Assembly: GCA_937888715.1 (NCBI GenBank) | Contig: CALARU010000191.1 | Coordinates: forward strand, 1 to 41,493 | DNA length: 41,493 nt | Reading direction: 5' to 3' | Source of the DNA: an uncultured Planctomycetaceae bacterium | GTDB taxonomy: Bacteria; Planctomycetota; Planctomycetia; Gemmatales; Gemmataceae | Part shown: positions 10,859-39,349 of the stretch, in pieces | How positions within the stretch are numbered: position 1 is the stretch's first letter | How the letters are laid out: every line of letters starts with the position of its first letter | Position numbers and translations under genes: made by a program | The notes under the pieces: generated by a model | Told to the model about the DNA's origin: nothing | What the model saw: the letters and a program-made list of their open reading frames with translations, nothing else | The model's database searches: none

Positions 10859-13800
10859 ATGCTAAAAAGCCTTGGTATTGTAGCCCGGCTTGTAATAATC
10901 CTCAGCGCAGGACTATTCAATTGTTGCCTTTTTGCCCAGCAATCAATTCAGTCAGATAAAGAACTAACCTCAAAGATAACTCAATTGGCTGGCAGCCTGA
11001 CTGGAAAAGACGCGAAAGTTTCTCAGGAAAACCTTTTTAAAATTATTGAAACAAATCCAGATGCGATGGTGATGAATACCAAAAATCACCTAATTAGGGC
11101 GTCATGGATTTGTCAAGTGTTCCTCTTGGGCAGTGATAAGAACTCGCAAGAATTTACAAAACACGAAGCTAATTATAAAAAGCAGTTTGATGTAGCTAAA
11201 ACGCAAAAAGATTTGCACGGGCTTTATGAAATTGTTCGTAACGGGCTTTATTGTAAGAGTGGGATTGATGCAAGCCTTCTGCTGGGTGACAGGGCCTTTG
11301 AGCAATCCAAAATTGAAGAAGCTGAATACTGGTGGAACCTGCCTATCGCACTTTATTCCGAGGCGCAACAAAAGCCTAATCTTGATAAACCTCTATTTTT
11401 TGAGCAGCTTCCATTGCTTAAGGCCAGATTAGTTGCAAGTTCTTTAATCAGGGATGGTTTGGGTAAAATTGCAAAGGAAAGATTTGATCAATTTGCATCA
11501 GAATTTCCAAAAGAGGAAGGAGCTCTAGCATCAAAAAGAGGCAATTTAGTTAAAACGCTTGAAGAATTTTCACAATCCAAATCATTCCGATTGAGTCGAA
11601 TCGACTGGACTTCCCACGCTATAACTAATGAACGAAATCCAATTATTGCGCAGGGCCCAACTGTGCACGAACTAGGAAACTGGTGCGCCACGCCCCCAGC
11701 TTGGAAGACCTCGATTGCCACGATAGATAATGACGAGCCAGATGCTGTTTCTGCAAAAAGCCTTTTGGCTCCACAAAAATCTCCTGATCTTCCATGCCAT
11801 CCGTTACAGGTTGGTTCGCGCATAATGTTTCAAGATGGTTCCAGACTGATTTCTTTCGATGTGGTTTCTGGTGCCAAAACTATCGTCTACGATCCTAACG
11901 AGATGTTCCCAAAAGGCAATTTAAACCAGCAATTAAGGTTAGGTCGAAGCATGACTCTAACCTTTTGCCCGCCTAACAGGGTATTGGTAACCCTTGATAA
12001 ACCCATTAAAAATAAGGGCAGAATCTTTGCCCCTGTTGCAAATGATATTTTAGATTGCGAAAGTTTTCTTGCTTGCCTGGAAGTTAATCCCGATGCGACC
12101 CGACTGCTTTGGGAGGCTAAGCTTCCCACGGGGGATAACAGCAGATTTGAAAGTGACCCGTTGGTACATGAAGGTAGGGTGTTTGTTCTTGTTAGCCAAA
12201 AGGTCAGTGGTAGAGAGGTGTCTAAAGTTCATTGTTACAACCTTAATGCAGGTACGCCAGATTTGCTTTGGTCTTGCGAGGTCGCTTCTGAAACTACAGC
12301 GGTTCAATTAGAAGAAAACAAGCAGGCGTTTTTGACCCTTGCAGGTAGCCTTGTGGTTGCAACCAGCAGGGGCGGTTCTGTTACTGCGGTAGATCAAAGG
12401 ACAGGAAAAACGGTATGGCTAAGGTTGGTTGCGCCAAATGAAAATGCACGCGCCATCAAAACACCAACACCTCTTCGGGCTATTTTTCATGAAGCCATGG
12501 TTTATCATCTAAATCCAAGAAATAGAGTGGTGCAGGCATTGGATAGCGGGAGTGGCACTCTTGTCTGGACTCGTGATGTTGAAAATGTCAACCAATTAAT
12601 TGCGGTTAAAGATGGTGTTTTGTTGTTAGGGACTGAAAATGGATTGCGGGCCTTAAATGCTACCAATGGTTTAGATAGTCATGCTTGGAGTATTCCTGCG
12701 GATGGTAGTTCCCTGCCTTCTGCGGGAAGGGGATTTATCCTTAACAATAATTATATCTGGCCCACCGTTAAAGGCGTGTTTGTTGTCGACATGAAAACTG
12801 GTTTGCCCGCTGCAGATCTTTCTTTATTTCATCGTTTACAGCCCGGCAATCTTTTTCTCTTTGATGATTTTTTATTGAGTGTTGATCGTAATGCGATCCG
12901 GATGTATCCGGGAAATAAAGCCGGGAAATCAAAGAAGCAGAATGCAGTTTTTTTAGCGCCACAGGCTTCAAAGAATGAGGAAATAAAGGCGCAACTGCCT
13001 AACGAAAAGAGTGTGAAACAAGATTGGAAAGTCGGAGATATAAAGTGGGTTATAAGGCAAACCGGGGGCGGGAAACTTTTTGATCAAGGCTTAGTTCAAA
13101 TTGCTAAAACTTCAAATTTAACAGCAATAGCTCGTTCTCAAGATTTTAAGGTTGTTCGAAATTCAGATGGGTCTTTACTTTGGGAGACGAAGTTACGAGA
13201 TGTTTGCACTTGGATGAAAGCCCAAGGCGATACTTTGTTACTCGGGTTTGAAAAATCGGTCATTGCATTTGATTTGAAAAAGGGCGCGGAGTTGTGGCGT
13301 TTTACACCAACCAACAATAGTGCCAACCCCTTCGGATTTGTGGTTTTAGGCGATAAATTAATTTGTCACGATGGCTCTTGGAAAATCTATTGTCTTGATT
13401 CCAATAATGGGAAAGTTCTTTTCGAATCCCAGTTTCCTTTCTTTGAAAGTGATTTTTCTGATCATCATCTTAACTTGCAAGAAATGGTTTCGATTAATCA
13501 GAATGCGTTCATTGTTCCGGATAATAAAAACAATTACTGGTATGTGGAGAAGGGCGGTTCTCAACCCAGATGCGTGCCTAGGTTGGATGATTCTCCTTGG
13601 GAAACCATGGCGCCTGTTCGAGATAACATTCTTGCACTCAATTCTGATGGAAATCTTTGCTTGCTGGAATCAAAGGGTTTTCAATGCATTATGAAAATCG
13701 CATTGCTTCCTGCGTCACTTAAATCGGGGAAGTCCGGGACGATTTTTGCCTTTAACAATCAAGCTGTTGTTGGTGTTGAAGGTAATACTGCAACCTTTTT

Positions 13801-14359
13801 GTTTTTTATCGATCTGACCAAGGGCAGCCATATTTGGGACAAGCCATTTTTAATATTCGAGAAAAACCTGAACCTTGATGCGTGGCGTCTTTTGGGTGAT
13901 AACCTTTACGGGTTTGCAGGCAGCTATTTTAAATCGTGGAATTTGAATACGAAACAAGAAACTAAGTATTTTAAATTATCCCCCGACTTTTTGCTTTACG
14001 ATTGGCGTATGAATGTTCATGAGGGGGAAATTCTTGTTTGGGTATCACCCCCTTCGTGCACTAAAATTACCATAAAGCTTGGCGCTTGGTTTTTGGCTTG
14101 GAGTTCCGATGGTATTTATCCCAAGGGGAAGGGAATGCCTTTGTATTTTCTTTCACATGGCGATGTGCAAAAGAGGGTGTTTTTAGAAACCTATGCCGGG
14201 GGGGCCCACTGGGTTTTTAAAGCTGTGAATGACTTTCATCTTTTTCCTGAAGTTTCATTTGTTAAAGAAGTTTCTGCTATTCATTCTCCCGTAATTTTGT
14301 TTGAAAAGAATGATGTGCTGGTGGGATTGGCATCGGAGGTTTATTGCCTGGCCCATTGA
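10859..14359 (+). CDS. Secreted beta-propeller protein with PQQ-like repeats
   Basis: The 1166-residue protein starts with a signal peptide (about residues 1-26, ending LFAQ). Residues about 30-215 look helical and may form a TPR-like region. From about 280 on there are blades of the PQQ/quinoprotein-like type: TAVDQRTGKTVW near 509, QALDSGSGTLVW near 559, IAFDLKKGAELWRF near 802 and YCLDSNNGKVLFES near 845. I see no dehydrogenase active-site motif, so it is more likely a scaffold or binding protein than an enzyme. It is the first gene of the 18-kb operon; its stop lies in the leader of the MoxR gene. It resembles the large PQQ-binding-like repeat proteins common in planctomycetes. The ATG has only a weak ATGGGG upstream. 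Confidence 0.85.
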   Translation: MLKSLGIVARLVIILSAGLFNCCLFAQQSIQSDKELTSKITQLAGSLTGKDAKVSQENLFKIIETNPDAMVMNTKNHLIRASWICQVFLLGSDKNSQEFTKHEANYKKQFDVAKTQKDLHGLYEIVRNGLYCKSGIDASLLLGDRAFEQSKIEEAEYWWNLPIALYSEAQQKPNLDKPLFFEQLPLLKARLVASSLIRDGLGKIAKERFDQFASEFPKEEGALASKRGNLVKTLEEFSQSKSFRLSRIDWTSHAITNERNPIIAQGPTVHELGNWCATPPAWKTSIATIDNDEPDAVSAKSLLAPQKSPDLPCHPLQVGSRIMFQDGSRLISFDVVSGAKTIVYDPNEMFPKGNLNQQLRLGRSMTLTFCPPNRVLVTLDKPIKNKGRIFAPVANDILDCESFLACLEVNPDATRLLWEAKLPTGDNSRFESDPLVHEGRVFVLVSQKVSGREVSKVHCYNLNAGTPDLLWSCEVASETTAVQLEENKQAFLTLAGSLVVATSRGGSVTAVDQRTGKTVWLRLVAPNENARAIKTPTPLRAIFHEAMVYHLNPRNRVVQALDSGSGTLVWTRDVENVNQLIAVKDGVLLLGTENGLRALNATNGLDSHAWSIPADGSSLPSAGRGFILNNNYIWPTVKGVFVVDMKTGLPAADLSLFHRLQPGNLFLFDDFLLSVDRNAIRMYPGNKAGKSKKQNAVFLAPQASKNEEIKAQLPNEKSVKQDWKVGDIKWVIRQTGGGKLFDQGLVQIAKTSNLTAIARSQDFKVVRNSDGSLLWETKLRDVCTWMKAQGDTLLLGFEKSVIAFDLKKGAELWRFTPTNNSANPFGFVVLGDKLICHDGSWKIYCLDSNNGKVLFESQFPFFESDFSDHHLNLQEMVSINQNAFIVPDNKNNYWYVEKGGSQPRCVPRLDDSPWETMAPVRDNILALNSDGNLCLLESKGFQCIMKIALLPASLKSGKSGTIFAFNNQAVVGVEGNTATFLFFIDLTKGSHIWDKPFLIFEKNLNLDAWRLLGDNLYGFAGSYFKSWNLNTKQETKYFKLSPDFLLYDWRMNVHEGEILVWVSPPSCTKITIKLGAWFLAWSSDGIYPKGKGMPLYFLSHGDVQKRVFLETYAGGAHWVFKAVNDFHLFPEVSFVKEVSAIHSPVILFEKNDVLVGLASEVYCLAH

Positions 14360-14382
14360 TTTATAAGAAAGGTTTGGTTGCT

Positions 14383-15444
14383 GTGCCTGATGAACAAAAT
14401 ATGATTGAAATATTGCTTGATAGTGAAAACGAAAAGTCCAGCGATCTTGAAGCTCTTAAGAAGATTCAGCAAGCTGGAGTTAAAATACGAGAAGAAATTT
14501 CCAAAGTGATTGTTGGCCATTCCGAGGTTGTTGAACAACTCCTCCTAGCCCTCTTTGCAAAGGGACATTGCCTTTTGGTGGGTGTGCCTGGGTTGGCGAA
14601 AACCCTGATTGTTAAAACTTTGGCATCAAGTCTGGGCCTTATATCTAATCGCATTCAATTTACGCCGGATTTAATGCCCTCCGATATTACTGGAACTGAA
14701 ATTCTTCAAGAGAATAAGACTTCGGGTGAAAGAGTCTTTCGCTTCATTAATGGCCCGATTTTTGCCAACCTTGTTCTTGCTGATGAAATTAACCGTACTC
14801 CCCCAAAAACTCAGTCCGCTCTTCTTGAAGCCATGCAGGAACTTCAAGTCACGGTTGGTGGCCAGCGCCATGTATTGCCCAAACCTTTTTTTGTGCTTGC
14901 AACCCAAAATCCTATCGAGCAAGAGGGCACTTATCCTCTTCCTGAAGCGCAGTTGGATCGTTTTATGTTCATGATTCTGGTTGGTTATCCCTCGGAATCT
15001 GAAGAACTTGAAATCATTTCTCGCACGACTTCAGGGCATATGAATCCTGTGCAGCGGGTTCTTTCAGAGGCTGAAATACAGGAGATGCAAGAACTCGTTT
15101 GCAAAATTCCCGCTTCACCCCATGTTGTTAAATACGCAATGGATATTGTGCGTAAAAGTAGACCCGAGCGTGATAAAGAATCATCTGCTGCTGTTCCAGA
15201 TTTTGTTAGGAAATATATTTCTTGGGGTGCAGGCCCCAGAGCTGGGCAAGCCATGGTGATGGCAGGTAAGGCACGGGCTGCGCTTGCTGGGCGCTTCTTC
15301 GTTTCTCGCGAAGATATCAAATCCGTTGCTCTCCCCATTCTCAGGCACAGGATAATTACTAACTATCATGCAGAATCGGATGGCATGACTGCTGATAAAA
15401 TAGTTCAGAAACTGATTGATTCCGTGCCTTTAGCGGAAATCTAG
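14383..15444 (+). CDS. MoxR-family AAA+ ATPase
   Basis: MoxR ATPases act as chaperones, usually with a DUF58/VWA partner, to activate metal- or envelope-linked proteins. The Walker A motif GVPGLAKT is at about residues 67-74, Walker B LVLADEIN at about 130-137, and the sensor region ATQNPIEQEGTYPLPEAQLDRF, characteristic of MoxR, follows. The start is uncertain: GTG at 14383 has AAAGG ten bases upstream; ATG at 14401 gives a shorter form; TTG at 14344 would overlap the preceding gene by 16 bases. All conserved sequence lies after these starts. The DUF58 gene follows 15 bases downstream, the usual partnership. Confidence 0.93.
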   Translation: MPDEQNMIEILLDSENEKSSDLEALKKIQQAGVKIREEISKVIVGHSEVVEQLLLALFAKGHCLLVGVPGLAKTLIVKTLASSLGLISNRIQFTPDLMPSDITGTEILQENKTSGERVFRFINGPIFANLVLADEINRTPPKTQSALLEAMQELQVTVGGQRHVLPKPFFVLATQNPIEQEGTYPLPEAQLDRFMFMILVGYPSESEELEIISRTTSGHMNPVQRVLSEAEIQEMQELVCKIPASPHVVKYAMDIVRKSRPERDKESSAAVPDFVRKYISWGAGPRAGQAMVMAGKARAALAGRFFVSREDIKSVALPILRHRIITNYHAESDGMTADKIVQKLIDSVPLAEI

Positions 15445-15459: not shown

Positions 15460-16404
15460 TTGAGCAATAATAGGAAATACCTTGATGCTGATGTGCTGGC
15501 CCGGCTTCGGCTTGTCGAACTCGAAGCCAGAACCATCGTTCAAGGTATTATCTCGGGCAAACATCGCAGCCCAATGCGTGGATTCTCTGTCGAGTTCGCA
15601 GAACATCGTGAATACTCCGCAGGCGATGATCTTCGTAGGCTGGATTGGAAAGTCCTTGCCCGTACCGAAAAGCTCTACCTCAAGCAATATGAGCAAGAGA
15701 CAAATCTTGCATGCTCTATGCTGGTGGATTGCAGTGAATCGATGTCTTTTGGTTCTGTCCCTTGGCAGAAAACCAAGTCCGGGATCCGTTCTAAATTTGA
15801 TCACGCTGCAATCGCTGCAAGCGTTCTTGCATACCTTTTGCAACACGATGGAGATGCCATCGGGCTTTATACCTTTAACGACAAAGTGTTAAACAGATTA
15901 TCCCCCTCGGGAAGGGTATCGCAATTGGAGGCGATATTCGAAATACTTTCATTGGGCCCCACCACCGGGAAAACCAACATCGCTCCATTGCTTCATGAAG
16001 TTTGCGAGAGAATGACCCGCAAGGGCGTTGTCTTTATATTCAGTGATTTTCTTGACGATATGGATTCCTTAATGGAGGGCATCAAGCACCTGAATCATCT
16101 TGGTCATGAAGTCGTTGCTTTTCATGTGATGGATCCGCAGGAGATGGATTTTCCTTTTCAAGATCCAACTTTGTTTCGCGGTTTAGAGGGCGAACCGCAA
16201 CTCGATGCAGATCCCGTTTCACTAAGGCTGAGTTATCTTGAAAATCTTAACCGATGGCGCACAAGCCTTCGTGAAGAATTAAGAAAGCTTGATAGTGATT
16301 ATGTTTTGCTTAGGACAGACGAAGTGCTTGGCGAAGTGTTGTCAGAATATTTACGGGGTAGAAAGTCGCGGACAAGGAAAGAGATGCGGGGGCCACTTAC
16401 TTGA
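15460..16404 (+). CDS. DUF58 protein with VWA-like fold, MoxR partner
   Basis: The DUF58 signature is at about residues 45-75 (EFAEHREYSAGDDLRRLDWK, then ARTEKLYLKQYE). It is followed by a VWA-like MIDAS sequence DCSESM with D90, S92 and S94, and FIFSDFLDD later. The protein is 314 residues and lacks an obvious membrane segment, so it is probably cytoplasmic and works with MoxR. It starts with TTG at 15460, with AGGGAG six bases upstream. Its stop overlaps the next gene as TTGA. Confidence 0.92.
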   Translation: MSNNRKYLDADVLARLRLVELEARTIVQGIISGKHRSPMRGFSVEFAEHREYSAGDDLRRLDWKVLARTEKLYLKQYEQETNLACSMLVDCSESMSFGSVPWQKTKSGIRSKFDHAAIAASVLAYLLQHDGDAIGLYTFNDKVLNRLSPSGRVSQLEAIFEILSLGPTTGKTNIAPLLHEVCERMTRKGVVFIFSDFLDDMDSLMEGIKHLNHLGHEVVAFHVMDPQEMDFPFQDPTLFRGLEGEPQLDADPVSLRLSYLENLNRWRTSLREELRKLDSDYVLLRTDEVLGEVLSEYLRGRKSRTRKEMRGPLT

Positions 16405-19400
16405 TTTTTCCGCTGTTTGCATTTCTGTTTGAAACCCCTATTGCTGCGCTTCTTGCTGCTGCAGGCGCTGTTGCAATTCCTGTTATCATTCATCTTCTGC
16501 GAAGGTTTCGCAGGCAGATTGTTGACCTGCCCACTATTCGTTTTCTTTTAGAAGCAAAAAAAGTTCAGGAGAAACGCTGGCGCATCGAACAATGGTTGTT
16601 GCTTGTACTGCGTTGCTTGATGGTTTTCTTGCTGGCTTCCGCCTGCGCTGCCGCAATGCCTTGGGCTGAACCCTACTGGCGCAAGTTATTCCCGGAGATG
16701 CGCGGGCAACGAATTGCTGGTGTATCTCGTGTGCATACCATTCTTGTTCTGGATGCTTCTCTTAGCATGCTGGCGCAAAAAGATGGGAAATCTGCATTCG
16801 AAAAAGCCAGACAAAATGCTGATCGTTTTGTTCAGGCTTGTAACCCAGGCGATGCCATTAGTTTGGTGCAGATGTCGTTTCCTCCGAAGATAATTATCAA
16901 CGAGGCTGCTGAAGATTTCGATAAAGTGCGGGAGGAAATTTCCGCGATAGCCCCCACTCATGGGTGTGCAGATCTTCCAGGTACACTTGCCTTAGTCGAT
17001 GCTATTTTGCAGAGATCTCCCCCACGGTTTAAAGACCGCAAAGTTCTTTTCGTTTCTGATCTTCAAAAGAGTTCTTGGCTTGGTAATGGTGCAGGCCCTG
17101 CCAATGCCTTGTTCTCTAAAATGCGAACCAAGGCAACTCTTGGGGTTCTTGATGTTGGTGTTGAAATAACTTCTAATCTTGCAATTACAAATCTCGAAAT
17201 AGATGGGCAGATTGCAGGGGTTAGTTCCGAAACTAGATTCATTGCAAAGCTTCAAGCATATGGCGATAAGCCGCAAAACCGTGTTAAAGTTCGATTGCTT
17301 GCCGGTAAAATAGCTCAGGGATCAGACTCTGTTTCTCTTGCTCAAGTGCTTGAGGAATCTGTTGATATGCAGGCTTCTTCGCAAGCTACGGTGTTACTCA
17401 AATACAAGTTCAAAGAGCCGGGCGATTATGCGGTTCAAATGCAGTTAGATCAGGATAATCTTGCAGTTGATGATTCCTGCAGAGTGATCGTTCGGGTCAG
17501 TAAAGAGCTTAATATCCTGCTGGTAAATGGCAGGTATTCTGCGCGTGAGCTTGAAAGATCGACTGGGTTTTTGCAAATTGCCCTCGATAACGAGGGCGTT
17601 GATTCTATTCCTTTGAAGTTCAAGGCACGATCAATCGATGAGCCAAGATTGGCAGACGAATTAAATAAAGGGCTTAGCAATTATGATTCTGTTTTCTTTT
17701 GTGATGTCGCTAGGTGGAGAGCTTCCGAATCGAGAATGGTTGCAGAGTTTGTGCGTAAAGGGGGTGGCGCGGTTTTCTGGTTGGGTGAGCAAGCCGAACC
17801 CGCTTCTTATAACGATAATCTTTTTCAGGAAGGCAAGGGGATTTTACCTGCGAAGCTGATCAAGCCCGTATCTTCGCTGCAGGGTTCGCTCTTTCAATTT
17901 CAATCCGATCCTTCGGCTTTTCAATATCCACCTCTTAGCGCCTTTCGTACTGCTGAAGATAAGCAATCTTTACTCGGCCCGCGATTTACCACTGCTTTTC
18001 AAACTGAACCCTTGCCCAAATCTCTTGTCCGAAATCTTGCGAATTTCAAAAGCGTTATTCTAGGTTCGAATGTGGATGATAATAAAAATGCATCCTTGAC
18101 TGTTCCAGCGTTGTTGGGTTGGCAACCTCCCATTGCTTCCTTGCAAAAGAATTCCAAGGCTACAGATTCACGATCTAAAGGTTGGGTTTACCTTGCTTGT
18201 ACTAGTGCCAATACGGAATGGAACAACTGGCCTGCATATCCCAGTTATCTGCCTTTTGTTCAAGAGTTAATGTTGGCAAGTTGTGCTGGGAAATTAAAAG
18301 AGCATTCGCAACTTTGTGGAACAACGATTGAAGATTACCCCACACAACAATCAGGCGAAGTTAAAATTTCGCTCCCTGATGGCACTGCAGAAACATTGCC
18401 TTTGATTCAGGATCAAGACTTTTCCAGAATGAACTTCAGCAATACCTTTAGATCAGGGTTTTATTTTGCAAGGTACCTCACAACACAGGCCAGTAATTGT
18501 TTTGCAGTAAATCCGATGCTAAGCCCAATGGGTGAGGCAGGGTCCGAATCAGATCTATCCCGTACTTCGTTGGAGGAGATCAATCAGTTTTATCCGGAGG
18601 CGAATTTTTCTCTTGTGAAAGATCCTGAAGCTTTTTTGAATGAAAATAGCTCAGGTACTTCCACTGATAATGAAGACAAAGGGATGTTGAGGGAGAAGAT
18701 TGCAGGTGTATTTCTTTTGTTGTTCCTTCTCTTTTCGATAGGGGAGTTTTTGTTTTCTTGGTTGATGGGGCTGGGCAGATCGCTTACGCCAAGCCTTAAG
18801 AAACCATGGTTGATCATGGGGCTGAGCTGGCTTGTTTTAATTCCTGTTGGATTTTGTATGGTTGGAATACTTGGCAATTCTTCGGGTGCAAATGCGCTCT
18901 CATTTCTACCTGCTAGTGTTGTTGAGAGTTTTGAATCGGTGCGTGGTCGAATTGAAGTCGGGGAAGGTGAAACATTACAAACCAGGTTGATAACTCAAAA
19001 TGAATTCACTCCCGCAATCAACACTAAAGCAGTCAGGCTTTCAATATTTGGGATTCTAACTTTTTGCACCGGTATTGCATTTGTTAGGTTGGTTTTTAAT
19101 CGCAGTGCTTTGGGGGCGATTACTCTTACTGGGTTAAGGTTGGGCTTTTGGTGGGTTCTGCTGTGGATACTACTACCCCAGATTGGCCTTGGGTTTGAAA
19201 GATTTACCTGGCCTGATATTGCAATTATGATTGATGATTCTCAAAGCATGTCGATTGCAGATAAATACCAAGACGAGGCCAGGGATTTGTTTTCGCGTAA
19301 AATTGCAGATGCTTCCAGCCAGCAAGTTACTCGAATTGGAATTGCCCGTGCCATTCTTTCAGAAAATCAAGGCAAGTTTCTTGCAAACATACTTGAAAGA

Positions 19401-21371
19401 AAGTTCCGCATTCACCTTTATCATCTTTCTGCCCGGGCAGAGAAAATAGCCCTTATCACCAAGCCTGAAGAAATTCCTGAAGCCCTTGTTTTAATTCGGG
19501 CCTTGAAACCGGATGCTTCCCATGACAGTAGCAAAATTGGTAATGCCTGCAGGCAGGTGCTTAATGATTTTCGGGGCACCCCCCTTGGAGGCGTGGTTCT
19601 TTTTTCTGATGGAGTTGTTACCGATGGCGAAGAATTGTCGAAGGTGACAAAATTTGCAGTCCAGAGTGCGGTTCCCTTTTTTGCAATTGGGTTGGGTGAA
19701 GAAATGGAACCCAAAGACCTTGCTGTATTGGATGTTCAGGGACCTGATGATATTGCTTTTGGAGACCGGGTGGTGTTGGATGTAAGGGTTTCTTCCGCAG
19801 GGTATAAAAACTTTCGAACCTCGGTGCTCCTTAAGGAAAAAGGTAAGCCTGATATTATTGATAAGCAGGAAATAACCCTTGATGAAACAGGTATACCTTC
19901 CGTAATACGCTTGGTCGATAAACCAAAAACCGAGGGGCTGAAACTTTATGAAATTGAGATCCCAATACAGAAGGAAGAATCGCAAGCGACGAATAACCGG
20001 CTCGAAAAAAATGTTCTTGTTCAACAAGCCAGCACGGTAAGAATTCTCTTTGTCGAAGGTTGTAGGCGTTATGAGTATCAATACTTGAAAACATTGCTCG
20101 AAAGGCAGGCGGAAGTTCCAGGTGGGAGAAAACTTTTCTCGTTGAATGTGCTTTTGCTGGAAGCAGATCCAGATTTCCCATCACAGGATCGCACTGCGAT
20201 TGCAGACCTTCCCACTCGAGGTGAGTTGTTTCTTTACGATGTTGTGATTTTTGGTGATGTTGACCCCAAATCGAGGGAATCTACAAAATTCAAACGATTC
20301 CTTACAGACCTCACCGAATTCGCACGCGAAAAAGGAGGAGGCGTACTTTTCTTGGCAGGGCAAAGATTCTTCCCTGCAGAGTATGCTGCTTCTTTGCGCG
20401 ATTTGTTGCCTGTAGAAATTAATGCTAATCCATTGATTGAATCGCCCGAAGGAATCATTCAGGGCTACAGGATGATTCCCGCGCCTTCTGCGAGCACGCA
20501 CCCTATTTTTAGATTTCATTCAGAGGAAAAAGAAAATAGTAATCTTTGGAGTCACATGAAGGAAATGTATTGGTGCTTTGCAGGTGTGGTGCCTAAGAAA
20601 GGTGCAGAAGTGCTTGCGAGTGCGGAGGGAGGCAATCTCGGGGTATCAGGCAAAAATGTGCCGCTCATGGTGCTCCAGTACTATGGTGCGGGCCGGGTTT
20701 TGTTTTTTGCATTTGACGAATCTTGGCGCTGGGCGTACCGAGAGGATCAGGGCTATTACAATTATTTCTGGCTGCAGACTCTGCGTTTTCTTTCCCGAAA
20801 TTCTGTCTCCAAGATTTCGCTTAAACTCGATAAAACCGGAAACTATAGGCGGGGCGATTCCATCCGGGTTCTTGTTCGACTTCCTCTTGATGCTTCAGGT
20901 GCAGAAGCTAATTCCACCGTTCGTGTGTCGATGGAAAAGAAAAATATACAAGATGGCAAAGGGAAAGAAATTATTACCCTTGAACTTGCCAAAGTTGTTG
21001 GCAGTAGGGGAGCTTTCGAAAGTGTTATTGATAATGCCCGTGAAGGTAAATATCTTTTTCAGGTGTTGCAACCCCGTAAGCAAGATGCAGCGCCCTTTGT
21101 TGAGTGCATTGTTCTACCGCCACCGGGTGAAATGGAAAAGCTGACCATGGCGCAAAATGATTTAACGAAGATGGCGCTTACCACGCAGGGCAAATTCTAT
21201 TTCCCTGACCAGACCGCTTCATTGCCTGCTGATCTCCCCAGCGGTTTTCAAATTTCATCTGGTTCCCCTTCGCCCCCTTGGGATTTATGGAACCATCCAT
21301 TTGTTTTTGTCCTCGTTTTATTACTGTTAACCTTGAATTGGTTTTTGGGAAGGCGCTTGCAACTGTTATAG
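16401..21371 (+). CDS. Giant BatA/VWA fusion protein with two MIDAS-type VWA domains
   Basis: The 1656-residue protein joins two modules normally seen as separate proteins. Module 1 (about 1-785) has a BatA-type N-terminus with two hydrophobic segments (about 16-32 and 64-86), a VWA domain with MIDAS D118-x-S120-x-S122, and a glutamine-amidotransferase-like fold (NILLVNGRYSARE near 373). Membrane segments at about 766-786 and 800-822, and another near 870-890, mark the junction. Module 2 has a second VWA domain (D945-x-S947-x-S949, with VVLFSDG at 1065-1071), a second amidotransferase-like fold, and a C-terminal helix at about 1633-1652. No frameshift or stop lies at the junction. The start is a TTG overlapping the DUF58 stop (TTGA). 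VWA proteins beside MoxR are usual substrates or partners of the ATPase. The amidotransferase folds appear to lack a clear catalytic triad and may be binding domains. Confidence 0.88.
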   Translation: MIFPLFAFLFETPIAALLAAAGAVAIPVIIHLLRRFRRQIVDLPTIRFLLEAKKVQEKRWRIEQWLLLVLRCLMVFLLASACAAAMPWAEPYWRKLFPEMRGQRIAGVSRVHTILVLDASLSMLAQKDGKSAFEKARQNADRFVQACNPGDAISLVQMSFPPKIIINEAAEDFDKVREEISAIAPTHGCADLPGTLALVDAILQRSPPRFKDRKVLFVSDLQKSSWLGNGAGPANALFSKMRTKATLGVLDVGVEITSNLAITNLEIDGQIAGVSSETRFIAKLQAYGDKPQNRVKVRLLAGKIAQGSDSVSLAQVLEESVDMQASSQATVLLKYKFKEPGDYAVQMQLDQDNLAVDDSCRVIVRVSKELNILLVNGRYSARELERSTGFLQIALDNEGVDSIPLKFKARSIDEPRLADELNKGLSNYDSVFFCDVARWRASESRMVAEFVRKGGGAVFWLGEQAEPASYNDNLFQEGKGILPAKLIKPVSSLQGSLFQFQSDPSAFQYPPLSAFRTAEDKQSLLGPRFTTAFQTEPLPKSLVRNLANFKSVILGSNVDDNKNASLTVPALLGWQPPIASLQKNSKATDSRSKGWVYLACTSANTEWNNWPAYPSYLPFVQELMLASCAGKLKEHSQLCGTTIEDYPTQQSGEVKISLPDGTAETLPLIQDQDFSRMNFSNTFRSGFYFARYLTTQASNCFAVNPMLSPMGEAGSESDLSRTSLEEINQFYPEANFSLVKDPEAFLNENSSGTSTDNEDKGMLREKIAGVFLLLFLLFSIGEFLFSWLMGLGRSLTPSLKKPWLIMGLSWLVLIPVGFCMVGILGNSSGANALSFLPASVVESFESVRGRIEVGEGETLQTRLITQNEFTPAINTKAVRLSIFGILTFCTGIAFVRLVFNRSALGAITLTGLRLGFWWVLLWILLPQIGLGFERFTWPDIAIMIDDSQSMSIADKYQDEARDLFSRKIADASSQQVTRIGIARAILSENQGKFLANILERKFRIHLYHLSARAEKIALITKPEEIPEALVLIRALKPDASHDSSKIGNACRQVLNDFRGTPLGGVVLFSDGVVTDGEELSKVTKFAVQSAVPFFAIGLGEEMEPKDLAVLDVQGPDDIAFGDRVVLDVRVSSAGYKNFRTSVLLKEKGKPDIIDKQEITLDETGIPSVIRLVDKPKTEGLKLYEIEIPIQKEESQATNNRLEKNVLVQQASTVRILFVEGCRRYEYQYLKTLLERQAEVPGGRKLFSLNVLLLEADPDFPSQDRTAIADLPTRGELFLYDVVIFGDVDPKSRESTKFKRFLTDLTEFAREKGGGVLFLAGQRFFPAEYAASLRDLLPVEINANPLIESPEGIIQGYRMIPAPSASTHPIFRFHSEEKENSNLWSHMKEMYWCFAGVVPKKGAEVLASAEGGNLGVSGKNVPLMVLQYYGAGRVLFFAFDESWRWAYREDQGYYNYFWLQTLRFLSRNSVSKISLKLDKTGNYRRGDSIRVLVRLPLDASGAEANSTVRVSMEKKNIQDGKGKEIITLELAKVVGSRGAFESVIDNAREGKYLFQVLQPRKQDAAPFVECIVLPPPGEMEKLTMAQNDLTKMALTTQGKFYFPDQTASLPADLPSGFQISSGSPSPPWDLWNHPFVFVLVLLLLTLNWFLGRRLQLL

Positions 21372-21406: not shown

Positions 21407-24400
21407 ATGACTTTGCTTACCAAAGAGATTGAAGCTTCACCGGATGCAGAGCGTTTGCAACGCCTTATGGCTTCCATTTTGTTGCAGAACAAAGTCTATG
21501 GTTTTTTTCGGGCGATCTTTATTTGGGCATTATTCACCAGCTTGGTTTTATCCAGTCTGGTTGTTTTGGAGTATCATTTTCATTTAGACTCTTGGTTGCG
21601 TGCAGTATCCTTGGTTTTATGGCTTGCTAGTTCCACTTTTGCATTTCTATTCTTGTTTAAACCCATTAACCGTGGTTCCTTGACTGCAACACAGTTGGCT
21701 TTGCAAATGGAGGGCATTGATCCGCAATTAAAAGATTCCCTGGCCAGTGCCATTTATTTTCTTGAACAGAACAAAACCATGGAAGGTGCCTCTGCAGAAT
21801 TAGTGGTAAAGGCGATAGCAGATGCTTTTGACAAAGTAATGCTTGCGGACGTTTTTTTCAAGGTTCATGTGCGCTGGGTGGGTGTTAGTTTTCTAATATC
21901 AGGTGCGTTTTTATTTACGATGCTGTTGGTTTTTCTTGGTTACATGCCTTTTTCTGGGGTGGCGCTGGCTCGGGTGATCTTGCCTTATGAAAATATAGCG
22001 TGGCCTACTCTTACTCAAATTGAAGTGGTTGCCCCAAAGCCCAAAGTTGGGAAAAATGAAACACTACGAATCGTTGCAAGGATCAAAGGTAAAACTCCCC
22101 AGCAAGCCACGGTTCTGGTTCATTGCGAGGGGGCTTTGCATTCTAAACTAATCGCAGATATTCAAACTGGTGAAGGCAATGTTTCGGAATTAATCGGGAA
22201 AATTGATGTCTCTGCGATAGGCCGTGATTTTGCGTTGCAAATATTCGCAGGTGATGCAGTTTCTGATGTTTATCAGATAACGGTTCTAGCCCCGCCGTTG
22301 TTTTTAGATATTGATGGAAATCCTTCTCCAACAGTAACTTGCCTACCTCCTTTCTATACTGGATTGCCTTCGCCTTTAAAAATCTCCCCTGGCACTTCGC
22401 AATTAGATGTTCCGCTTGGAAGTAATTTAGTATTTAAAGGGCTTGCGGATCGCACGCTTAAATCTGCCCGCCTCGAATTCCAGCCCGAAAATAAAGATCT
22501 TCTGCCAGGTATTGTAGGGGCCTTGTTTTCCGCAGGCGATCAGTGGGCAACTTTAGTATTGCTGCCAATTGCCAAAGCTTCTGCTGCAGAAACTGCAATT
22601 TCTTTGGATACCTTGAATACTGGATTTGAAATTTCATTTACCCCAATAGCTTCGGGGATTTATTCGGTTGTGATTGAGGATGAAAGCGATTTATATGCGA
22701 TTCGAAGTTTTGACCTACAGGTTCGTGCTGATCCTTCGCCTTTGGTAAAAATGGATTCTTCGCTTGCGAATAGCGGGTATTTGCAATTGTTTCCCGAAGC
22801 TGAAGTTGCCCTTAAAATATCTGCTGAAGATGTGCTTTATGGGTTAAATTCCGTTGGTATTGAGTTTAAAGGGGCGCAAGATGCCTTTAAAAATTCGGGT
22901 GCAGATTTTTGGAACCAAACTTTGGTTGACAATAATGGGATTAGAACCAAGCCCGTAAATAATCTTTTACTGGATCATGTGGTTAAACTGAAGGATTTGA
23001 AAAACGCAAATGGTTCTTCTTTTAAGGCAGGCGATCGCTTTTCATTTCGTTATATAGCCAGTGACCATGACGATATTTTGCCTCTGAAACCCCGGGGCGG
23101 TTCTGAATGGTTGGAAATTCAAATTGTCGATCGCAATGGAATTGAATTATCACTTGAGAAAGCTCAAGAGAAGGCTAGGCAGGAATTATTGAAGGTCAGG
23201 GATGTTCAGCGCAAGGCGACCAAAGATACCCGGTTTGCCTTGGATCAAATTAAATCCAAGGAAGAAGGCGTTCAAAAAGCAATGGAAGCTGTTCAGTCAG
23301 CAGAGCAGGGGCAAAAAAATGTAGCTGAACGGCTTGGAGAAAAAGAATCAGGACTTCTAGGCGGTATTGAGAAAATTAGGAAGCTTGCGGAAGCTAACAA
23401 GTTGAAATCTTCTGCTTCATTGAGTCGGCTTAATGAACTGGGAAAAGAAATCAAAAAAATCGAAGAAGGAGAGTTGGCGCAAGCAGAGTTGCAATTGTCG
23501 GAGGCCTCCAAACGATTGGAATCTGCAGATGCTGGAAAAGGATTGGAAAAAGAAAAATTGACTGCTGCGCTTGAGAAGTCGTTGAGGAATCAACAAGAAG
23601 TTGAGAAAAGCTTGGATGGGTTGCTTAAAAACCTTGAGCCATGGGCCGGCCTTGCCGAAATGCGTTCCGATGCCCGGGAGACACTGCTTGAACTGGAAGA
23701 TTTGAAACGGAAGTTGGAGGATACGCAAAAGCAAGATCCCTCAGCATTGGGGAAGAAGACTGATGAGCTTACTCCGATGCAAAAAGAAAAGATCGAGAAT
23801 CTTTCGGTGCAGCAAAGCAAGGTAGCTCAGAAAGCAATGAACCTCGTTGATAAAATGAATAAATCAACGCAGGAGAAAAAAGGGCTAGAGGAGTCGGTTG
23901 CTAAAAATATCAAGGATGCCCTCGAGTTGCCTGATGTTAAGGAATTGAAAAACAACCTTCGTTCTGCAAAAGAAGAAATTGAATCCAACCGATTGACGGA
24001 CGCATCAAAATCGCAAGCTAAGGCTGTGGAAGGGATACAAGAGATATTGGAAAAGCTTGAAGAAAACCCGCAGGAGATGAATCAAAAGTTGGCGAAAAAA
24101 TTGCGTGAGGTTCAAAAGCAACTCGAGGAGATGAAACAAGAGATGCAAACTTTGCGTAAAAAACGCGATGAAGCGCAAAAGATCAAAAATGATGATCAGA
24201 AAAAAGATGCCCTCCAGAAGAACAATGATGAGATGGAAAAACTAGCTTCCAAAATGGAAGAGATGGCTAAAACTCTGAGCAGGTTAAAGAACGAAAATGA
24301 AGGCGGTAATCTCGAAGATTCAGCCAAAGAATTAAGGCGTATAGCTCAAAATCCACAAGAGAACCCAGGTGTTAACCCTGAGTTAAATCCTCTTGATAAA

Positions 24401-25195
24401 GCTCAGGAAAAATTGCAGAGGGAAATACAAGACGTGCAACAGTTGGCAAAAGAAACCGAAGAGAAATTACAAAGAGAGCGCCTAGAGAAGATTGCTGAAA
24501 GTATAAAGCTGCTTTCTGAAAGGCAGGAATCTTTGGTAAAAGAATCCGAGAGGTTTGATATTTTGCTGAATGAAAAAGGAGCATGGACCCGTGCCCAGAT
24601 TCTTTCACTTACTGGCTTTGCACGATCCCAAACTGGCCTTGCTGAGGAAACCGAACTTGTTGCTTCACGCGATCTTGATGGATTGCCTGTGTTTATGAAA
24701 ACTATCGGCATGGCAGGTAGATCGATGCGCAACGCTGCAAAATTATCGGAACGAAATTCTCGAACTCAAACCAAAGGGCCGCCACTTTCAGAAAAAGTCG
24801 TGCCTGTGCAAAAAGAAGCTTTGCAACGATTGATGCAATTTCAAAATGCACTCAAGGAAGAAATTGGGCAGCTTGCCTCTGCAGCAAAGGATAATGAAGC
24901 GGAAGAAAAACAGGAGAAAAACACCGAAGAAGGCAAACCAAATCAATCCGGGGGAGGAGCGCAAGATCGTAAGCCACCATCGATTGCCCAGCTTAAATTG
25001 TTGCGTAATTTACAGGCAGATTTGTATGATCGAACCGAGCAACTTTCTACCAAGTTTCCCGATTCTAAAAAGATGCCAGAAGATAGCAGACGGGAAATGC
25101 TCAATCTTCAAAAAGATCAACGGGAAGTAGGAGAATTGTTGGAAATCCTTATCGAGTTTAATCGCAAAAATGCACCCCAGGGAGATTTGCAATGA
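21407..25195 (+). CDS. DUF4175-like large membrane protein with long coiled coil
   Basis: The 1262-residue protein has three membrane helices (about 35-55, 64-84, 156-178), an extracytoplasmic part of about 400 residues rich in predicted beta structure, and then a very long charged coiled-coil region (about 580-1075) rich in Lys, Glu, Gln and Leu. Near 1150-1185 a short Glu/Lys/Gly-rich linker precedes a conserved C-terminal part. This resembles the DUF4175-type proteins found downstream of MoxR/DUF58/VWA genes. The coiled coil could span the periplasm or form filaments; no enzymatic motif is visible. AAAAGGA lies 13 bases before the ATG. The stop overlaps the next start as ATGA. A second protein of the same architecture starts at 39350. 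Confidence 0.85.
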   Translation: MTLLTKEIEASPDAERLQRLMASILLQNKVYGFFRAIFIWALFTSLVLSSLVVLEYHFHLDSWLRAVSLVLWLASSTFAFLFLFKPINRGSLTATQLALQMEGIDPQLKDSLASAIYFLEQNKTMEGASAELVVKAIADAFDKVMLADVFFKVHVRWVGVSFLISGAFLFTMLLVFLGYMPFSGVALARVILPYENIAWPTLTQIEVVAPKPKVGKNETLRIVARIKGKTPQQATVLVHCEGALHSKLIADIQTGEGNVSELIGKIDVSAIGRDFALQIFAGDAVSDVYQITVLAPPLFLDIDGNPSPTVTCLPPFYTGLPSPLKISPGTSQLDVPLGSNLVFKGLADRTLKSARLEFQPENKDLLPGIVGALFSAGDQWATLVLLPIAKASAAETAISLDTLNTGFEISFTPIASGIYSVVIEDESDLYAIRSFDLQVRADPSPLVKMDSSLANSGYLQLFPEAEVALKISAEDVLYGLNSVGIEFKGAQDAFKNSGADFWNQTLVDNNGIRTKPVNNLLLDHVVKLKDLKNANGSSFKAGDRFSFRYIASDHDDILPLKPRGGSEWLEIQIVDRNGIELSLEKAQEKARQELLKVRDVQRKATKDTRFALDQIKSKEEGVQKAMEAVQSAEQGQKNVAERLGEKESGLLGGIEKIRKLAEANKLKSSASLSRLNELGKEIKKIEEGELAQAELQLSEASKRLESADAGKGLEKEKLTAALEKSLRNQQEVEKSLDGLLKNLEPWAGLAEMRSDARETLLELEDLKRKLEDTQKQDPSALGKKTDELTPMQKEKIENLSVQQSKVAQKAMNLVDKMNKSTQEKKGLEESVAKNIKDALELPDVKELKNNLRSAKEEIESNRLTDASKSQAKAVEGIQEILEKLEENPQEMNQKLAKKLREVQKQLEEMKQEMQTLRKKRDEAQKIKNDDQKKDALQKNNDEMEKLASKMEEMAKTLSRLKNENEGGNLEDSAKELRRIAQNPQENPGVNPELNPLDKAQEKLQREIQDVQQLAKETEEKLQRERLEKIAESIKLLSERQESLVKESERFDILLNEKGAWTRAQILSLTGFARSQTGLAEETELVASRDLDGLPVFMKTIGMAGRSMRNAAKLSERNSRTQTKGPPLSEKVVPVQKEALQRLMQFQNALKEEIGQLASAAKDNEAEEKQEKNTEEGKPNQSGGGAQDRKPPSIAQLKLLRNLQADLYDRTEQLSTKFPDSKKMPEDSRREMLNLQKDQREVGELLEILIEFNRKNAPQGDLQ

Positions 25196-26157
25196 TGATT
25201 AGGATTATCATGCTGTGCTCTCTTTTACTTGTTTCGGGGGCAATGATTGCTCAAGAAAAAGAGTCTGTTCCCACTCAAGAAAAATCAAGCGATGAAGGCC
25301 CGGTTAGGTTGAAAAAGAAGAAAGCTATGCCTGCGGAACCTCAGGAAAAACCAAAAGATTCTGCGATTGTTCCAAGTGATAAAAATAAACCCGAGTCTAA
25401 CCCTGAAAAGAAAAAAGATAAGGGAACTCCACCACCAATAGAAATGGAGCAACCGAAAGATAATCTTGAAGAAGAAGAGATTTTTGGACGAATCGGGAAA
25501 AATCTCAAGGATGTTGACGACAGATTAGGAAACCTTGAGTTAGGGGAAGCGACTCTGCAAAAACAACGCGATATTCTTGAAGATATTGATAAACTGCTCA
25601 AAAAGAATCAAAGCAATCAATCTCAGTCGAATCAGTCCCAATCTAAATCTTCATCGAAAAGCGAAAGCCCAAATAAACAACCAAAAGGCTCGCCTGATAA
25701 CCAAGATTCCAACGCTAATGATTCGGATAAAGGGCAGGATAAACAGAAACAAGGTGGGCCGAAGCAAGGGCAGCAAGGCGCAGATTCTGGGAAACAACAA
25801 AAACAGGGCGGCCAAGGCAAAGCTGATCCCGATGGAAAACCCGATGCAGGGAAAGGGCAGCCTAAAGATATGCAGGGTAAAGGCGACAAAGGTGCATCTG
25901 AAAAATCAGAGGTTGCGAATCAGGGTAAAGGTGATGACAAAAATTCCAAGTCTGGGGATGGAGGCAAAACCGACCCTTCTAAAAATAAGGTGAATCCTGC
26001 TGCCGATGTTTTTAAAGAGGCTTGGGGGCATTTACCCGAAACATTGCGGGCAGAGCTTAATGCTTATGGTGTGCCCAACCAATTCATGGACCGTTATGAT
26101 GAGATGATTCGAAAATATTATGCAAAGGTAGCTGAAAAGGGTGCCAGGAAAAAGTGA
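25192..26157 (+). CDS. Secreted low-complexity Lys/Gln/Gly/Asp-rich protein
   Basis: The 321-residue protein has a signal peptide (about 1-21, ending MIAQ). A charged region follows, then a short helical part (about 95-137, LGEATLQKQRDILEDIDKLL), a low-complexity stretch of about 130 residues made almost only of Lys, Gln, Gly, Ser, Asp, Asn and Pro, and a folded C-terminal piece (WGHLPETLRAEL through MDRYDEMIRKYYAKVAEKG). The last segment is the part most likely to be conserved in relatives. It is coupled to the gene before (ATGA) and after (TGATG), so it is likely a component of the same envelope complex. No function can be assigned. Confidence 0.82.
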   Translation: MMIRIIMLCSLLLVSGAMIAQEKESVPTQEKSSDEGPVRLKKKKAMPAEPQEKPKDSAIVPSDKNKPESNPEKKKDKGTPPPIEMEQPKDNLEEEEIFGRIGKNLKDVDDRLGNLELGEATLQKQRDILEDIDKLLKKNQSNQSQSNQSQSKSSSKSESPNKQPKGSPDNQDSNANDSDKGQDKQKQGGPKQGQQGADSGKQQKQGGQGKADPDGKPDAGKGQPKDMQGKGDKGASEKSEVANQGKGDDKNSKSGDGGKTDPSKNKVNPAADVFKEAWGHLPETLRAELNAYGVPNQFMDRYDEMIRKYYAKVAEKGARKK

Positions 26158-27266
26158 TGATATTTAATTTCCAGCGTAGAGAATGTTTGTTTGCGGGGCT
26201 TGGTTTGTTAACCATTCCCCATTCTTCTTTTGGCTTTCAAGAGCCAAAAATTAAAAAAGGCCCCAATCTGCCTGATGGTTCTCAGGCCAAGGGCATGATG
26301 ACACCCCAGTTGGATAAATCTGTGGAAAAAGGTCTCGAATTTCTTGCTACCCGTAGAAGGCCTGATGGTTCTTTTGGTACTGGCACCTACACCGGTAATG
26401 TTGCAATCACCAGTCTTGCAGCACTGGCATTCATGGCTGGTGGCAATCAGCCCCAAAGAGGTAGGTTCGGGAAAATAGTTACTGATGCCCTGAAATATAT
26501 TCTTACTCAGGAAAACAGGGAAGGCGGTTACCCAGGTTTTTTTCATAACCCTAGATCCTCGCCTCATGGCCCCATGTATGGACATGGTTTTGCCACTTTG
26601 TTTCTTGCTGAAGTTCATGGCATGATTCCCGATAAGGAACTTCGAACACAGACCCATGATGCCCTTGAACGGGCTATTAAATGCATCTTAGATAGCCAGA
26701 CTAAGGAAGGTGGATGGCGTTATAATCCAACGCCCAAAGATGCTGATATTAGTGTGACGATTTGCCAAATCATGGCTTTAAGGTCTGCGCGAAATTCAGG
26801 TATTCTTGTTCCTAAATCCCGTGTTGATCGCTGTGTTGAATATGTCAAACGCTGCCAGGATAAACGCGAAGGTTGGTTCAGGTATATGGCGCAATCGGGT
26901 GGTGGCGGGCAGATGGGATTTGCACGCACTGCTGCAGGTGTTGTGGCTTTATACAGTGCAGGTATTTACGATGGGCCAGAGATAGAAGCTGGGTTGCAGT
27001 TTTTAGTTCAATCCAAACCTCAGGGATTGAATCTTCAACGTACGGAAATGCATTATTTTTATGGCCATTATTATGCTGTTCAGGCAATGTATACTGCGGG
27101 TGGCAAATACTGGGCTGAATGGTTTCCCTATATTCGCGATGAATTAATTGCTAGGCAGCGCCCCGATGGCTCTTGGTTTGATCAGGTGTGTGGTCATTAT
27201 GCAACCGCAATGGCGTGCTTGGTTCTTCAAACTCCCAACAACTATCTTCCCATTTTTCAAAAATGA
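26157..27266 (+). CDS. Exported prenyltransferase/squalene-cyclase-repeat (alpha/alpha-toroid) protein
   Basis: The 369-residue protein has an N-terminal twin-arginine-like signal (NFQRRECLFAG, then a hydrophobic stretch to about residue 27). It contains repeats of the prenyltransferase/squalene oxidase type: LEFLATRRRPDGSFG, YILTQENREGGYPGF, ILDSQTKEGGWRYNP and ARQRPDGSWFDQVCGHY. The catalytic DxDD motif of squalene-hopene cyclases is not evident; the nearest is DADISVT after GGWRYNP. It is therefore probably a binding toroid or an enzyme of unknown activity rather than a hopene cyclase. ATG at 26157 overlaps the previous stop (TGATG), with AGGAA upstream; GTG at 26154 is an alternative. Confidence 0.88.
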   Translation: MIFNFQRRECLFAGLGLLTIPHSSFGFQEPKIKKGPNLPDGSQAKGMMTPQLDKSVEKGLEFLATRRRPDGSFGTGTYTGNVAITSLAALAFMAGGNQPQRGRFGKIVTDALKYILTQENREGGYPGFFHNPRSSPHGPMYGHGFATLFLAEVHGMIPDKELRTQTHDALERAIKCILDSQTKEGGWRYNPTPKDADISVTICQIMALRSARNSGILVPKSRVDRCVEYVKRCQDKREGWFRYMAQSGGGGQMGFARTAAGVVALYSAGIYDGPEIEAGLQFLVQSKPQGLNLQRTEMHYFYGHYYAVQAMYTAGGKYWAEWFPYIRDELIARQRPDGSWFDQVCGHYATAMACLVLQTPNNYLPIFQK

Positions 27267-28456
27267 AATTAAACTTTCTTACAGTAGTGGTTTTTTCTTG
27301 TTGGGCGACTTTTGTAAGCGCTCAAGATCCAATATTTATTGTGCGTGACAGAATCGGAACCGTCAAAGAAGGCAGTATTCAGCGAATATCTTCAGCCAAT
27401 AGTTTGGAAATGCTTTCCGCGGATGGGAAAAGTTTTACGCTTACCAATCCTGTTTATCTCTCCCGAAAAAACACGGTTAGTCCGAAGTTTCCCCAATCTA
27501 GAGCGTTATGGCTTTTGAATGATGATTGTATTAAGTTTGAAGATTTGTTGATGAAGGATGATAGCTTTGAATTTGAAAGTTCAGATTTTGTTTCTGGGAG
27601 TAAAACTCTAGTTCCTCTTTTGGATACCAAGATGATATGGCTAAAAAATCCTCTGGGTATTCTTGACCCTGTTTCCTATCGCAACAAAATACTTAATGAA
27701 ATTCGGCTCAAAGATTTCGTTGTTTTGAATAATGCAGAGCGTGTTGATGGGGTTCTTGAGAGTTTAGGTGCAAAAAATGCTGTGCTGGATTCTGGAACCG
27801 CCAAGTCTGAATATAAAAGTGATTCCATCGCAGTTATTGGCTTAAGCTCTGATGATAATTCTAAAAAAGAGAAAGCGATAGAAGGGGTAAGTTTGGTTTT
27901 GGATTCTGGTACAAGGATAACGCTTGCGGAGTTCAATCTTTCGATGGGAATTCTTGAAGGCAAAACGATGCAGGGTACAAAGGTTCGCATTCCCATTGCC
28001 AAAATTCAGCAAGCGGTATTTTTGGGAAAAAGTGTTGTTAGAATTCAAGAACTTAAGAACATTAAGCTGAGACAAGTACCGTTTTTTGAAACTCCGATGG
28101 AGGCGAAAGGTGTTAAAGCCACCAAGAATTCCGACTTTTTGATTTCCGGTTCATCCTATTCCAATGGGTTTTCTACCATGGGAAGTACCTCGATCACTTT
28201 TTTACTAGAGGGGAAGTACCAAAAATTATGCGGTTTTTTTGGCTTTGACGATATTGATGGCAGGCGGGGCAGGGCGGATATTAAGCTTCTTGCAGATGGA
28301 AAAGTAATTGCAAGTTGGGCTGATCGAACTTGGAAAGATGGCCTTGGCAGCTTGGATTTGCCCTTAGCAGGCACTAAGGCGCTATCCTTGGTTGTCGAGG
28401 CATCTGTTGGGTCAAAAATCAATTGGTGCGAATGCCTGTTCTTTCTGGCAGATTAA
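27263..28456 (+). CDS. Secreted protein with NPCBM-like C-terminal domain
   Basis: The 397-residue protein has a signal peptide (about 1-21, ending VSAQ). Several repeats of a small beta motif follow in the body (for example DRIGTVKEGSIQRISSANSL). The C-terminal domain of about 110 residues (SSYSNGFSTMGSTSITFLLEG through NWCECLFF) resembles NPCBM/NEW2 carbohydrate-binding modules: LCGFFGFDDIDG, then LLADGKVIASW, LPLAGTKALSLVVE and the final W-C pair. It may bind polysaccharide or cell-envelope glycans. The ATG at 27263 overlaps the toroid gene's stop as ATGA. It is the last gene of the 18-kb operon. Confidence 0.82.
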   Translation: MKLNFLTVVVFSCWATFVSAQDPIFIVRDRIGTVKEGSIQRISSANSLEMLSADGKSFTLTNPVYLSRKNTVSPKFPQSRALWLLNDDCIKFEDLLMKDDSFEFESSDFVSGSKTLVPLLDTKMIWLKNPLGILDPVSYRNKILNEIRLKDFVVLNNAERVDGVLESLGAKNAVLDSGTAKSEYKSDSIAVIGLSSDDNSKKEKAIEGVSLVLDSGTRITLAEFNLSMGILEGKTMQGTKVRIPIAKIQQAVFLGKSVVRIQELKNIKLRQVPFFETPMEAKGVKATKNSDFLISGSSYSNGFSTMGSTSITFLLEGKYQKLCGFFGFDDIDGRRGRADIKLLADGKVIASWADRTWKDGLGSLDLPLAGTKALSLVVEASVGSKINWCECLFFLAD

Positions 28457-35052: not shown

Positions 35053-35109
35053 TCGGATTCTTTGAAAAGATGTTTGTTGCACGAATTGTAAAAAGGACCT
35101 TAAGTACCC

Positions 35110-35649: not shown

Positions 35650-35687
35650 TTCAAGTGCAATAACCGTCTGAATATAAGGAGAGTTTA

Positions 35688-39124: not shown

Positions 39125-39349
39125 TTAGCGAATCCTTGAGTATTTAGGCAGGTTCTGCAATCTTTTGGCCCGTTGCCTCGTCTTGTAATCAGGGCATACT
39201 ACCCTTGTTAGTTGATATTGTCTACCTTTGGTGCGAAAAGTATGAGTAAAAGGTTCTTTTGTTATGTTGGAAATTTGCGAAGTATTTGATGTGTCTTTAA
39301 GCTAGAATAATTAAAGTTGAGAGCTTCATTTCTGGGAGAATTGATTGCA

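Follow-up and report, generated by a model that had tools for sequence, protein, structure and literature searches.

Organization of the fusion locus

The window, i.e. the whole stretch of 41,493 nucleotides analyzed here, contains at positions 16401–21371 a single intact open reading frame of 1656 codons plus stop. The encoded membrane protein joins a BatA-type VWA/GATase1-like N half to a second VWA/GATase1-like C half (Table 1), and the preliminary description of this DNA was correct in reading it as one 1656-residue polypeptide. Its TTG start overlaps the stop codon of the preceding DUF58 gene (TTGA). The fusion lies within a cluster, PQQ-MoxR-DUF58-fusion-1262 aa-321 aa-toroid, which is conserved in the genus of the window and in near relatives; with the two halves as separate N and C genes, the order PQQ-MoxR-DUF58-N-C-1262-aa partner is conserved as well. 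As in Bat operons, MoxR and DUF58 genes are situated beside BatA. At one related locus (L147), the genes of the 1262-aa type, the 321-aa type and the toroid are found on the strand opposite to the fusion.

Table 1. Genes of the conserved cluster and features of the fused protein (positions in the window; aa, residues of the fusion).
Feature	Position	Strand	Basis
PQQ/BamB-like beta-propeller protein, opening the conserved cluster	10859..14359	+	
MoxR AAA+ ATPase	14344..15444	+	
DUF58 protein; stop overlaps fusion start	15460..16404	+	
Fusion (1656 aa), membrane protein with BatA-type VWA/GATase1-like N half and second VWA/GATase1-like C half	16401..21371	+	
TM1 (aa 14-32), BatA double anchor	16440..16496	+	
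TM2 (aa 66-84), BatA double anchor	16596..16652	+	
VWA1 main part (aa 108-252), MIDAS D118/S120/S122 + D220	16722..17156	+	Pfam, model
Ig/CARDB-like domain 1 (aa ~259-349)	17175..17447	+	profile search, model
GATase1-like domain 1 (aa ~370-632), without nucleophile Cys	17508..18296	+	profile search, model
Strand and helix at the end of VWA1 (aa 737-751)	18609..18653	+	model
TM3 (aa 759-794), running out to in; ancestral N protein ends here	18675..18782	+	
Fusion-specific insert (aa ~793-833) holding TM4	18777..18899	+	alignment
TM4 (aa 805-823), in to out, helix of fused proteins	18813..18869	+	
TM5 (aa 880-898), first helix of ancestral C protein	19038..19094	+	
TM6 (aa 907-925)	19119..19175	+	
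VWA2 main part (aa 936-1100), MIDAS D945/S947/S949 + D1070	19206..19700	+	Pfam, model
Ig/CARDB-like domain 2 (aa ~1106-1186)	19716..19958	+	model
GATase1-like domain 2 (aa ~1211-1467), without nucleophile Cys	20031..20801	+	profile search, model
Beta-rich domain 3, probably Ig-like (aa ~1473-1572)	20817..21116	+	model secondary structure
Strand and helix at the end of VWA2 (aa 1598-1611)	21192..21233	+	model
TM7 (aa 1632-1650), C-tail predicted cytoplasmic	21294..21350	+	
1262-aa conserved partner, without Pfam family	21407..25195	+	
321-aa conserved partner	25192..26157	+	
Squalene-cyclase-like alpha-toroid protein	26154..27266	+	

Domain structure of the two halves

Pfam matches on the fusion comprise BatA (residues 10–83), VWA_2 (113–220) and VWA (939–1107). 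Membership in the BatA family is confined to the N half, which scores 44.1 bits with PF07584 (cut-off 25.9) and 54 bits with TIGR02226 (cut-off 23.05); the double anchor at residues 10–83 is also called by NCBIfam. Each VWA domain carries a conserved MIDAS consisting of the DxSxS motif and a downstream aspartate (D118/S120/S122/D220 and D945/S947/S949/D1070). In alignments of 45 and 58 orthologues, D118, S120, D945, S947 and S949 show no variation, and S122 is kept in 44 of 45 sequences, so that the two complete motifs of the preliminary description stand exactly as placed.

The halves were modeled separately with AlphaFold2 (mean pLDDT 86.0 for N and 86.9 for C). Both models match the VWA structures of BatB (3ibs; Z 17.5 and 19.5) and 4jdu, and the matches span 108 to about 750 in the N-half model and 111 to about 790 in the C-half model. 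A GATase1-like fold is indicated by profile searches (3soz/2gk3/3rht; best E 6.7e-5 in the N half and 4e-10 in the C half) and by the models, with best Z scores of 22.9 (N, 3rht) and 21.6 (C, 2gk3). The GATase1-like protein 3rht of Planctomyces limnophilus matches both half models (Z 22.9 and 21.5), and 3soz is also among the best. Since the strand and helix that complete each VWA domain are located beyond the GATase1-like domain, the Ig-like and GATase1-like domains appear in the models to be inserted before the last VWA strand, following the same plan in both halves. The earlier proposal that an amidotransferase-like fold follows each MIDAS domain is therefore borne out as regards the fold, while the arrangement needs correction: an Ig/CARDB-like domain lies in between, and the GATase1-like domain appears to be placed within the VWA domain. 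Glycosidases topping the Foldseek lists were set aside, as these matches spanned several domains with high r.m.s.d. and TM-scores of 0.09–0.17.

A profile comparison of the N and C halves (hhalign) aligns 635 columns with an E-value of 2.2e-31 and a probability of 99.9. Judged by this similarity, the halves are paralogues, and the fusion rejoined the products of an old duplication.

Membrane topology and the helix at the seam

Transmembrane helices were called by hydropathy, with the Wimley-White octanol scale as a second measure. Four are found between the ectodomains, in agreement with the membrane helices already noted there. One of them, TM4, is present in all fused proteins (53/53; hydropathy 1.76–2.94), within a seam insert of about 40–50 residues that split N and nearly all split C proteins lack. 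In each of 59 split N proteins, TM3 is the last helix by hydropathy; an upstream hydrophobic stretch occurs in only 4 of 86 split C frames, two of which are probably mechanical extensions of the reading frame. The octanol scale gives the same picture for TM4, with a few split C starts being moderately hydrophobic. In the alignment, the split N proteins end at about 'FGH' and the split C proteins start at residues aligning after TM4.

In the split N proteins, TM1-TM2 precede the ectodomain and TM3 follows it, leaving a short tail with a median length of 6 residues. This resembles the BatA homologue BB0173, for which three transmembrane helices, a lumenal N-terminus, a cytosolic C-terminus and a periplasmic VWA domain have been shown (PMC5700661). 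In the split C proteins, the N-terminal segment is poor in Lys and Arg (0.074 per residue) and the loop between TM5 and TM6 is rich in them (0.30), which according to the positive-inside rule suggests an N-out orientation. The predicted C-terminus of split N is thus cytoplasmic, and the predicted N-terminus of split C lies outside. Joining an end inside to a beginning outside requires an odd number of extra crossings, and TM4 would allow both ectodomains to stay periplasmic in a predicted 7-TM protein.

Additional helices were observed in three split proteins. Two split C proteins of Isosphaeraceae type (L121, 5737–8496; L136, 4320–7031) possess their own N-terminal helix and share an 'RFGPS' motif, a possible parallel to TM4. 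A Gimesia-type N protein (L046, 5069–7390; G038:C1:350000-366000), situated with MoxR-DUF58, has an extra C-terminal helix.

Distribution of fused and split forms

The fused gene is found in 50 Gemmataceae genomes, the named loci including Gemmata, Fimbriiglobus and 'Gemmataceae'. Among the remaining genomes of the family that were read, four contigs end in or beside the gene, one genome (G012) holds only the C part at a contig start, two (G001 and G061) contain a stop codon elsewhere than at the junction, and one (G060) shows a frame change inside TM4. A strong match is absent in 7 of 76 family genomes; in six of the seven the 1262-aa partner is missing too, which shows the system to be dispensable.

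In Planctomycetia outside the family, N and C are adjacent separate reading frames in 43 genomes, and four genomes have C without N beside it. The 20 loci read in other parts of the phylum all have split, adjacent genes; neither there nor in the Planctomycetia genomes read outside the family was a fused form found. The expectation of two genes in many genomes and the natural origin of the fusion, both put forward in the preliminary description, are thereby confirmed, and the mapping across relatives it had called for separates fused Gemmataceae from split relatives. The fusion is real and lineage-wide in Gemmataceae, a lineage-specific case within a known kind of system; in the literature searched, no paper on such a fusion in this family was found.

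Separation can go further than two adjacent genes. In G038, of a Gimesia-type genus, N is located at 355 kb of contig C1 with MoxR-DUF58 and C at 1.91 Mb, a distance of more than 1.5 Mb; in G038, C (locus L030) is accompanied by its partner of the 1262-aa type, far from N. In several genera no N gene adjoins C. The fusion-bearing genomes also contain paralogous MoxR-DUF58-N-C loci, in which N and C are split. The window's own genome has further loci of MoxR/DUF58/N/C type with separate N and C (L035 on G000:C146, G000:C286 and G000:C384).

A quick tree search on 78 C halves, with SH-aLRT as the only support measure, separates the 49 split rows from the rest by a single branch (SH-aLRT 100); opposite them stand every fused row and four rows truncated at contig ends. 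As the split forms all lie on one side of one branch, one fusion is enough to explain the distribution, and no reversal is seen in the sampled tree. Two kinds of candidate were rejected. Long frames of 1500–1950 residues in some split genomes resolved into two reading frames each, and are mechanical extensions instead of further fusions. G060 (L079, 6043–14999) was considered as a reversal to the split state; since the neighboring gene of the 1262-aa type is broken in addition to the frame change in TM4, indel errors or decay are likelier.

Alternative explanations

The genome of the window is a fragmented assembly of 414 contigs, and two genes might have been run together by a stop or frameshift lost near the junction. 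However, some 50 family members and independently assembled congener genomes have the same frame running across the junction. It is open there in G002–G006, with G005 leaving its contig in the C half; the congener G001 keeps the frame at the junction and has a TAG near residue 387, and the TAG of G061, from another genus, lies in the C half away from the junction. Among the congeners, substitutions at residues 760–880 fall mostly on third positions, indicating coding constraint across the junction, and TM4 and the linker are conserved. On these sequence grounds an assembly error is excluded, the probability of an artefact being negligible. A more substantial alternative concerns the order of events: the extra helix might predate the fusion, either as an N-terminal anchor of C or as a C-terminal helix of N, in which case fusion only removed a stop. 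The additional helices of the two Isosphaeraceae split C proteins and of the Gimesia-type N protein point in this direction. Yet these are only candidate homologues of TM4, nearly all other split forms read lack an extra helix, and a split intermediate was not found among Gemmataceae; a helix older than the fusion is considered less likely than not.

It is also conceivable that the chain is cut after synthesis, or that C is additionally made from an internal start, and that two proteins work as in the relatives. Both halves have kept complete ancestral domain sets, in keeping with such a scheme, but inspection by eye of the alignment of fused proteins reveals no Met that is conserved where the ancestral C protein began, and we give this explanation little credence. 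Even less probable is that the protein is an enzyme with active amidotransferase domains. Although the fold of both halves matches GATase1-like proteins, the regions of the nucleophile elbow (residues 454–463 and 1312–1321) lack the conserved Cys of class I glutamine amidotransferases, which makes glutaminase activity unlikely.

Proposed history and mechanism

The explanation that we consider probable is a single fusion of paralogous N and C proteins in the Gemmataceae ancestor, with TM4 correcting the topology and the product acting as a paired VWA adaptor in envelope integrity. An ancestral planctomycete operon would have encoded two paralogous inner-membrane proteins. N, of BatA type, would be N-out, with TM1-TM2, a periplasmic VWA domain bearing the inserted Ig and GATase1-like domains, TM3 and a cytoplasmic tail; C would likewise be N-out, with TM5-TM6, a periplasmic VWA domain with the same insertions, and TM7. 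The two genes would have fused once in the ancestor of Gemmataceae, TM4 supplying the extra crossing that yields a 7-TM protein with both ectodomains periplasmic. In the paired adaptor, both MIDAS sites may grip periplasmic partners or substrates, and the catalytically dead GATase1-like domains may serve as binding modules. Cytoplasmic MoxR, together with DUF58, would power the remodelling and so support envelope integrity.

Topology, pairing, MoxR coupling and envelope role are all inferred here, and the coupling of MoxR to this particular protein is a guess by analogy. MoxR/VWA pairs remodel targets, and the MIDAS has been implicated in target binding: in NorQD it is needed for function, and a finger of the VWA domain was modelled in the MoxR pore (PMC9976466). 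Since the VWA domains of the fusion are predicted to be periplasmic and MoxR cytoplasmic, direct contact of the NorQD kind cannot be assumed. A role in MoxR-linked envelope maintenance is suggested, again by analogy, because, according to the citations in PMC5700661 and PMC3893208, Rhizobium leguminosarum suffers envelope and morphology defects when a related operon is lost. The absence of a phenotype after deletion of bat genes in Leptospira biflexa (PMC3557215) counts against such a role.

That the two proteins act together, as proposed in the preliminary description, is a sensible inference given N-C adjacency across the phylum followed by fusion. The further claim that the fusion is direct evidence of a 1:1 ratio goes too far, as seen from the distant N and C genes of the Gimesia-type genome and from the genera having C without N. 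Equal synthesis is fixed by the fusion only in the lineage that has it. Moreover, homology of the halves also allows like-with-like pairing, so that the fusion does not fix the stoichiometry of any assembly. Tentatively, and as something possible rather than probable, one ancient fusion of paralogous VWA proteins facing the same way, enabled by a newly gained topology-correcting helix, may have fixed an obligate VWA-VWA pair throughout the family; in that case the split pair would form a heterodimer, and the fusion would show its geometry.

Comparison with known systems

MoxR/DUF58/VWA operons are widespread, yet little is understood of their membrane parts. From the fusion one would predict that the VWA proteins of split systems work in pairs on the periplasmic side of the membrane, and the prediction becomes specific through TM4, in that the ectodomains would have to face the same way. 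BatA and BatB of the Bat operons (Bacteroides aerotolerance; Leptospira; Borrelia BB0173) have in common with the fusion the MoxR and DUF58 neighbors, the BatA double anchor and a VWA domain with MIDAS; the three-helix N-out/C-in topology of BB0173 is a further likeness. In contrast, Ig and GATase1-like domains appear to be inserted into the VWA domains here, the fusion unites a pair of such proteins, and the cluster genes scanned here have no Pfam match to BatD, TPR or SH3 components. The operon RL3499-RL3502 (cmdA-cmdD) of R. leguminosarum likewise combines a MoxR ATPase with VWA/DUF58-type partners, and its mutants show envelope and morphology defects according to the accounts in PMC5700661 and PMC3893208. 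Its genes are separate, unlike the fusion, and the likeness drawn from these accounts is one of operon description.

Fusions within MoxR/VWA loci have precedents in batB-batC of L. biflexa and others in Borrelia, Spirochaeta and Francisella (PMC3557215). In batB-batC, however, the VWA protein is linked to a partner of another kind, whereas here two paralogous VWA/GATase1-like proteins are combined with an added helix. Singleton, paired and fused states within one family, explained through membrane topology, are also found in UPF0016 and DUF606 (PMC4067407); these are small antiparallel proteins, in contrast to the large ectodomains that would here be kept on the same side by the extra helix. 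With dozens of fused and split relatives, the fusion is a clean case of how membrane proteins can be joined in spite of clashing ends. The new detail is the seam helix TM4, tied to the fused state, which makes this lineage-specific fusion more interesting.

As in MoxR-vWA-beta-propeller ternary systems (PMC7159879), MoxR, VWA and propeller genes share one neighborhood. In those systems the propeller is C-terminal to the vWA domain in one protein; here it is a separate gene (10859–14359).

Further genes were observed in the window. An NPCBM-domain protein (27188–28456) at the cluster end overlaps the toroid gene, and genes for an NfeD membrane protein and a flotillin-like FloA lie near each other at 32818–36722. 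A DUF4175-like frame (39317–41491; 32.7 bits), which leaves the window, shows a weak match to the 321-aa partner.
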